Assembly: GCA_016192435.1 (NCBI GenBank)
Contig: JACPUD010000008.1
Span: forward strand, 1-64,000
DNA: 64,000 bases
DNA from: Rhodocyclales bacterium
Lineage (GTDB): Bacteria; Pseudomonadota; Gammaproteobacteria; Burkholderiales; Rhodocyclaceae
Reading direction: 5' to 3'
The notes under the pieces were generated by a model that did no database searches, was not told where the DNA came from, and saw only the letters and a program-made list of their open reading frames with translations. Both the position numbers and the translations under genes were made by a program. This document shows positions 35,138 to 35,345 of the stretch, in pieces; positions within the stretch are counted from its first letter, which is position 1, and every line of letters begins with the position of its first letter.

Positions 35138-35203
35138 TGACTTAGCCTCGTAAATATTTTGAACATTACTTGAACTTTAACGCATGCGCCCTATCATAGT
35201 AAG

Positions 35204-35320
35204 CAGACAGTGGCGGACGCCCGTTCCCACTGCCTCCCGCTTCACCTCCCTGAGCGGGTGCCTTGAACATTTCAAGGTGTTTCGCCCTCGGCCTTCTCCC
35301 CTTTGGTCGAGGGCTTTTAT
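35204..35320 (+). ncRNA. Candidate small RNA beside engB, positional match to Spot 42/ErsA
   Basis: A strong promoter precedes it: TTGAAC at 35170-35175, a 16-bp spacer, TATCAT at 35192-35197. The transcript of about 115 nt can form four hairpins: CAGTGG/CCACTG, CCCGCT/AGCGGG with an exposed CCTCCC loop, CCTTGAA-cat-TTCAAGG, and a terminator GCCCTCG/CGAGGGC followed by TTTTATTTT. The C-rich loops could pair with ribosome sites. It converges with engB, as Spot 42 of E. coli does with yihA. Sequence identity to those RNAs is not claimed. Confidence 0.6.
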
Positions 35321-35345
35321 TTTGGCGCAGCCAAAATAAAAGCCC
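35311..35345. repeat. Perfect 16-bp inverted repeat
   Basis: GGGCTTTTATTTTGGC, three bases (GCA), then its exact reverse complement. The left arm contains the T-tract of the sRNA terminator. Being symmetric, it may also end engB transcription from the other side. Confidence 0.75.

Follow-up and report, generated by a model that had tools for sequence, protein, structure and literature searches.

The window analyzed here, a stretch of DNA of 64,000 nucleotides (nt), carries a real, already-named small RNA (sRNA), a member of the described Rfam family RF02837 (anti-hemB). With a probability of roughly 0.7, we read it as a trans-acting sRNA that would be transcribed from a sigma-E-type promoter and would block ribosome-binding sites with the aid of Hfq, and whose relatives include ErsA and sX13. 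The window RNA itself belongs to a known family; of greater interest is the prospect of uniting several families. Many members of the class have at this locus a variously named RNA whose CCUCCC loop is near-invariant and whose promoter looks like sigma-E type, and the idea is testable.

The window RNA and its neighbors

The predicted full-length RNA spans positions 35205 to 35323 on the plus strand (∼118 nt, both ends being predictions). An Rfam scan of the window matched RF02837 at 66 bits, above the curated cut-off of 49.5, over the whole model (positions 1 to 81 of 81), and the features of that family are all present: a stem with a CCUCCCUGA loop, a second hairpin, and a terminator. The minimum free energy of the RNA is −54.3 kcal/mol, compared with −34.1 (SD, 3.7) for 200 dinucleotide shuffles, none of which folded as low (z = −5.42). 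Four hairpins make up the fold. SL1 (35205 to 35235, from folding) is a 5′ hairpin beyond the Rfam model, variable in sequence but kept as a hairpin. SL2 (35236 to 35258) and SL3 (35260 to 35278) are supported by folding and alignments, and the SL2 loop bears the near-invariant CCUCCCUG motif, a putative anti-ribosome-site element. SL4 (35284 to 35323; the hairpin itself covers ∼35284 to 35314) is an intrinsic terminator with a C-rich loop (UUCUCCCCUUU) and the U tract UUUUAUUUU. An earlier sequence-only reading of this DNA had proposed an sRNA gene that converges on engB and has four hairpins, including one with a CCTCCC loop, and a terminator; this is borne out, and its estimate of ∼115 nt is close to our predicted length. 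It missed, however, that the RNA already had a name as a member of RF02837.

The gene order in the window is hemB (minus strand), sRNA (plus), engB (minus), and cytochrome c4 (plus), so the place typical of anti-hemB, with divergent hemB and convergent engB, is found here. The divergent gene at 34127 to 35137 (minus), which we take to be hemB from the earlier reading and from its protein, has a coding region that does not overlap the predicted RNA. The convergent engB (yihA/ysxC) lies at 35418 to 36035 (minus), and the cytochrome c4 gene lies beyond it, from 36152 (plus), as in Pseudomonas and as had been noted earlier.

Between the sRNA and engB is a perfect inverted repeat with 17-nt arms (35310 to 35326 and 35330 to 35346) separated by 3 nt and facing T tracts. 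It had been described as a perfect 16-bp repeat that faces engB and is fused to the RNA; it is perfect, but its arms are 17 nt long, and instead of a fusion we find two convergent terminators. One is that of the sRNA (plus strand), and the other is a probable engB terminator read from the sequence on the minus strand at 35334 to 35352, GCCC-GAA-GGGC followed by TTTTATTTT. The repeat is thus two back-to-back terminators, an ordinary shared termination zone. We give almost no credence to the notion that no sRNA exists and that the hairpins merely terminate transcription or form a repeat where two genes converge. The window does have facing terminators and a perfect inverted repeat, but the promoter, the four conserved hairpins, covariation, and the match to an Rfam family all argue for an RNA gene, as does the transcript mapped in Burkholderia cenocepacia.

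Two other elements were observed in the window. A 23-mer at 35363 to 35385, between the engB terminator and engB, has eight copies in the genome (≤3 mismatches), with no occurrence of the reversed-pattern control, and is perhaps a dispersed repeat. A second sRNA, matching RF02278 (Betaproteobacteria toxic small RNA) at 61.1 bits, lies at 16887 to 16952 (minus) and adjoins tRNAs at 16621 to 16693 and 16720 to 16792 (minus); RF02278 is described as the family of B. cenocepacia ncS27 and as close to Bordetella S17.

The hairpins are conserved within the order

Among 41 genomes of the order, the window's own included, 36 have RF02837 above the cut-off. The window's genus supplied 23 of the 37 order loci that we examined. 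In 32 of the 37, the RNA has hemB divergent on one side and engB convergent on the other. Two more (L023 and L156) have convergent engB, with hemB unseen on their short contigs; in another two (L004 and L157), engB is upstream and codirectional with the sRNA, perhaps through a local inversion that kept the sRNA-engB pair together; and one (L031) has neither gene.

In a 20-sequence alignment that was not fitted to the structure, 90.4% of cells pair, compared with 81.6% in shuffles and at most 55.4% when the structure is slid along the alignment, and 14 of the 25 pairs have changes on both sides. The consensus fold on the MAFFT alignment recovered SL2 and SL4 only; therefore, we placed SL3 manually and tested SL1 by folding each sequence. 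An SL1 stem of at least 5 pairs formed in all 20 order sequences and in 53/53 class sequences (1 of 54 was too short), a frequency counted in real sequences alone. The shuffle comparison, which concerns energies only, gave mean SL1 energies of −8.9 (order) and −8.7 (class) versus −4.7 and −4.6 for shuffled sequences; the energy was below the sequence's own shuffle mean in 20/20 order and 50/53 class sequences. Thus SL1, though outside the Rfam model, is kept, a feature that appears to be new. The sequence-only reading had named a lack of hairpin conservation in relatives that keep the hemB-engB order as one ground for refutation; the hairpins are conserved there.

Across the class, the RNA stays with engB and polA but not with hemB

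Of 276 class genomes, 16 have RF02837 above the cut-off, including the window's genome and a second one from the order, and 133 have it at an E value of 1e-3. At E ≤ 1e-3 the model also matches 3 of 14 control genomes, none above the cut-off; position is therefore the test, and the threshold alone proves nothing. Among the matches listed, 40 were best matches with E ≤ 1e-5 and engB on the same contig (engB being listed for part of the genomes only, and four extra copies in genomes already represented, two each in G273 and G287, being left out); 38 of these are no more than 1.5 kb from engB, and 35 of the 40 converge on it. Since 13 further loci (L160 to L172) had been picked because engB was near, the 28 loci outside the order that were chosen by score alone (L032 to L059) are our unbiased set for gene order. 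Of these 28, 16 have convergent engB and 17 have polA upstream and codirectional; 10 have both and 23 at least one, while 2 have cytochrome c4 only and 3 have no listed neighbor.

Models built from homologous regions of relatives, a check proposed in the earlier reading, recovered the RNA in both directions. R1, made from the 20 order sequences, found it in all 45 class loci on which it was run, with best scores ranging from 19.2 to 66.5 bits. R2, made from 54 class matches that all lie outside the window's order, gave the window RNA a score of 82.5 bits (E = 2.7e-18), this being its sole clear match in the window's genome; the second, in a listing to E = 10, had 19.1 bits (E = 0.18). In the fitted class alignment, where fitting favors pairing, both sides have changed in 24 of 25 pairs, and pairing is seen in 93.9% of cells, compared with 67.9% after shuffling and at most 52.3% after sliding.

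The family is therefore not specific to hemB; outside the order it is often beside polA, engB, or both. This bears on the role that the Rfam name implies, in which the RNA would be a cis-acting antisense regulator, made from the strand opposite hemB and directed at the hemB leader. Divergent hemB does adjoin the RNA in the 32 of 37 order loci (with 23 of the 37 from one genus), and the hemB leader, if long, could reach into the sRNA 5′ end. However, the predicted RNA and the hemB coding region do not overlap, polA is upstream in those 17 of 28 score-only loci, tblastn listed no hemB match at loci outside the order, and the near-invariant part of the RNA is the CCUCCC loop. We consider a cis-antisense role very unlikely and rejected it because coding overlap is absent and hemB is not the neighbor outside the order. 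The name anti-hemB is misleading, and the published passages on the family give no tested target.

Some genomes carry two to four anti-hemB-type copies in tandem (G193:C33:13148-13886, G287:C8:6557-7475, G273:C3:217579-218301, G272, and G173). By eye, a sigma-E-like motif precedes each copy in the arrays at L064, L069, L035, and L039, and is missing before the second copy at L049 (G130).

A probable promoter of sigma-E type

On the plus strand just upstream of the RNA is a sigma-E-type promoter, GAACTT (35172 to 35177), N16, TCATA (35194 to 35198), recognized by sequence score. We scored GAACTT plus T-C-[TA]-N-A at a spacing of 15 to 17, with a maximum of 10; the consensus itself is general knowledge, and the score was chosen after the sequences had been inspected. 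The window promoter scores 10/10 as sigma-E type and 9/12 as sigma-70 (TTGAAC-16-TATCAT, 35170 to 35197). With L066 and further copies in tandem arrays left out, a sigma-E score of ≥9/10 was found in 12/15 order loci (window included; shuffle mean, 0.25), 22/22 further loci of the window's genus (0.48), 34/44 class loci (0.53), and 54/54 ErsA-type loci (1.4). The motif falls below 9 in three order loci (L156, L157, and L031) and 10 class loci. By eye, five of the latter (L038, L043, L048, L166, and L171) appear to have sigma-70-like sites, possible lineage-specific promoter switches.

A sigma-70 score of ≥9/12 was reached by 3/15 order, 21/22 genus, and 10/44 class loci (shuffle means, 0.9, 2.4, and 4.4), and a score of 10/12 by none of the scored order, genus, or class loci. 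We therefore rejected plain sigma-70 as the promoter common to relatives. The window's genome encodes RpoE (315 bits), and upstream of its rpoE gene we noticed, by eye, GGAACTA-N16-TCATT. On this sequence evidence, the window promoter is better read as sigma-E type, a pattern that recurs in most relatives examined and appears to be new, and RpoE may control the window RNA. The earlier reading had claimed a clear promoter; a promoter is present, but the pattern common to relatives is the sigma-E type and not plain sigma-70.

The RNA could instead be a constitutive output of the housekeeping sigma factor, the sigma-E-like match being incidental in the window's genus. The 9/12 sigma-70 score in the window and in 21/22 genus loci would fit this, as would reports that the B. 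cenocepacia family member ncS04 was without induction in the conditions tested, but the GAACTT half and the spacing recur across families where the sigma-70 hexamers do not, and rpoE itself bears the same sigma-E pattern. We regard the housekeeping alternative as unlikely and retain the sigma-E-type reading.

A near-invariant CCUCCC loop and a proposed mechanism

The SL2 loop contains CUCC in 20/20 order sequences and CUCCC in 53/54 class sequences, with varying stems, and 44 of the 54 class sequences have a run of at least three C's in the terminator loop. A CCUCCC loop that is nearly invariant while the stems covary appears to be a new observation. Because such a loop is complementary to GGGAGG, pairing with ribosome-binding sites is the best explanation for this pattern. 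A precedent is sX13, which is reported to repress via C-rich loops and G-rich target motifs (PMC3771888). The window's genome encodes Hfq (97.9 bits), and by likeness to ncS04, the window RNA is predicted to be expressed as a discrete Hfq-binding RNA.

We propose that transcription would start at the sigma-E (RpoE)-type promoter, a type that points to probable expression in envelope or related stress, and would end at the RNA's own terminator just short of engB. Hfq would most likely assist the sRNA. In SL2, the exposed CCUCCCUG loop would pair with the G-rich ribosome-binding sites (GGGAGG) of several mRNAs, perhaps assisted by the C-rich terminator loop, and the pairing would block translation of the target mRNAs. 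Both ribosome-site blocking and the nature of the targets are inferred for the window RNA. Since sX13 is reported to act without Hfq (PMC3771888), Hfq need not be universal.

Relationship to ErsA, sX13, and Spot 42

Over 80 named loci, mostly of Pseudomonas, R2 gave 54 matches (E ≤ 0.002 for 830 kb; best, 4e-8), although part of the score at ErsA sites may stem from the terminator. All 54 are on the converging strand beside engB, with polA on the other side in 52; for the other 2, polA was unseen on the short contig. R2 misses 26 of the 80 at E = 0.002, and engB is detectable in 23 of these 26; at L135, L143, and L150, an R2 match lies beside engB but is codirectional with it. All six R2 sites that were scanned are Rfam ErsA (RF01719). 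R1 is weaker at Pseudomonas-type sites (best, 24.7 bits; E = 6.7e-5), and the scores of R2 at the three sX13 genes range from 29 to 32 bits.

Weak matches in the class point the same way in part. Of 11 weak matches to RF01719, 7 fall on the RF02837 RNA (G091, G097, G179, G193, G277, G296, and G312), 1 is 377 nt past the engB 3′ end (G071), 2 are elsewhere (G117 and G306), and 1 is unplaced (G167). Of 12 to the sX13 family, RF02232, 4 fall on the RF02837 RNA (G111, G193, G247, and G287) and 2 converge on engB (G160, where RF02837 also matches at 26.5 bits, and G102, at 632 nt); the remaining 6 are at neither a listed RF02837 place nor a listed engB. The four-copy tandem array of G193 is matched by RF02837, RF01719, and RF02232. 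A scan of 15 class loci with 4,227 families, 9 of the loci having been picked because cross-matches had been seen there before, yielded 43 matches at E values up to 0.3, all to anti-hemB, sX13, ErsA, or ar14 except for one tRNA and one TwoAYGGAY. The alphaproteobacterial ar14 (RF02344) matches 5 of the 15 loci (L067, L064, L054, L160, and L161) at 30 to 41 bits. This calls for caution, as part of the signal may be common architecture; the ar14 matches may reflect either distant kinship or convergence on anti-ribosome-site loops.

The cross-matches among anti-hemB, ErsA, and sX13 could likewise be convergence on C-rich-loop hairpins plus a terminator, without common descent. Consistent with this are the ar14 matches in 5/15 class loci, the 26/80 named loci that R2 misses at E = 0.002, the location elsewhere of 6/12 weak sX13 and 2/11 weak ErsA matches, and the fact that most Pseudomonas-type alignments shown match mainly SL3 and the terminator, without the anti-hemB form of SL2. 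Against it, 7/11 weak ErsA and 4/12 weak sX13 matches hit the RF02837 RNA, one place per megabase-scale genome; the families agree in gene order and orientation and, as regards ErsA, in promoter type; and the model of Spot 42, also a terminator-ended sRNA, matches 0/276 class genomes. We judge convergence rather unlikely. With support from both models and position, ErsA and sX13 are probably divergent relatives of anti-hemB.

Spot 42 (RF00021) fared differently. Its model (cut-off, 80 bits) has no match in the window. At Escherichia coli spf, R2 scored 21.6 bits, the best of 101 kb (the next, over the OhsC sRNA, had 11.7), in an alignment that is essentially the terminator, and upstream of spf we found no sigma-E motif (7/10); a CRP site has been reported for Spot 42 (PMC3295665). 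Sequence homology to Spot 42 is not accepted, since the R2 match is terminator only, RF00021 matches none of the 276 genomes, and spf is without the sigma-E motif; given the first two of these results, we leave the place of Spot 42 undecided. Of the positional family that the sequence-only reading had proposed, the ErsA part thus stands, on model and position, and extends to sX13, while for Spot 42 position and a terminator are what is shared.

These findings suggest that differently named sRNAs beside engB form one old family with a common stress-type promoter. A more specific history, to which we give even odds, is that one ancient sigma-E-controlled, ribosome-site-blocking sRNA between polA and engB was ancestral to anti-hemB, ErsA, sX13, and perhaps Spot 42, followed by a swap to hemB in the window's order, retention of polA in the sX13 lineage, and tandem arrays, with copies mostly having their own promoters, elsewhere. 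If this is true, three Rfam families would become one clan, and knowledge of ErsA (envelope stress and biofilm) and sX13 (G-rich target motifs) would transfer to the anti-hemB family. Our literature search found no paper that joins anti-hemB with ErsA or sX13; earlier publication elsewhere is possible.

Comparison with known systems

The closest known system is ncS04 of B. cenocepacia J2315, an anti-hemB member of 105 nt with its 3′ end determined by RACE (PMC5688073, Table 1) and shown on a Northern panel in Fig. 6 of the same paper. It is oriented <- -> <- between BCAL0264 and BCAL0265, which we infer to be hemB and engB, and was copurified with Hfq (PMC4603805, Table 4). In quantitative PCR, ncS04 is reported without significant change in any of seven conditions (Table 2), and the B. 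cenocepacia sRNAs tested were described as largely without induction by short stress exposures, including SDS and H2O2. An Anti-hemB entry is also present for Burkholderia pseudomallei (PMC3521395). Given the transcript and Hfq results for ncS04, the kinds of test that the earlier reading had suggested were already done in a relative, although in another organism. The window RNA and ncS04 have sequence and structure in common (66 bits for the window) and the same orientation, away from one neighbor and into the other. They differ in length (105 nt versus ∼118 nt predicted), SL1 of the window RNA falls outside the Rfam model, and the window has a putative sigma-E-type promoter, which the published passages do not discuss for ncS04; a word search of PMC4603805 and PMC5688073 gave no mention of RpoE for it.

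ErsA is reported to be a 132-nt RNA dependent on sigma-22/AlgU (PMC5819304) and, with help from Hfq, to repress the translation of algC (PMC5819304, PMC8395346). Like ErsA, the window RNA converges on engB, with cytochrome c4 beyond, and has hemB where ErsA has polA. The two would also share a sigma-22/sigma-E-type promoter (GAACTT-N16-TCATA in the window) and, by eye, a C-rich terminator loop. Unlike the window RNA, ErsA has no evident anti-hemB-type SL2, and RF01719 (cut-off, 50 bits) has no match in the window at the gathering threshold or up to E = 5. The sX13 RNA resembles anti-hemB in the C-rich loops on its hairpins and in the polA neighbor of its loci; RF02232 scores 20.9 bits in the window region, far below its cut-off of 50, and the three sX13 loci examined have no engB. 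Spot 42, of which ErsA has been called a functional orthologue in a review (PMC8395346), has a terminator and lies in E. coli between polA and convergent engB (polA-spf-yihA); the window keeps engB convergent as in E. coli and has hemB instead of polA.
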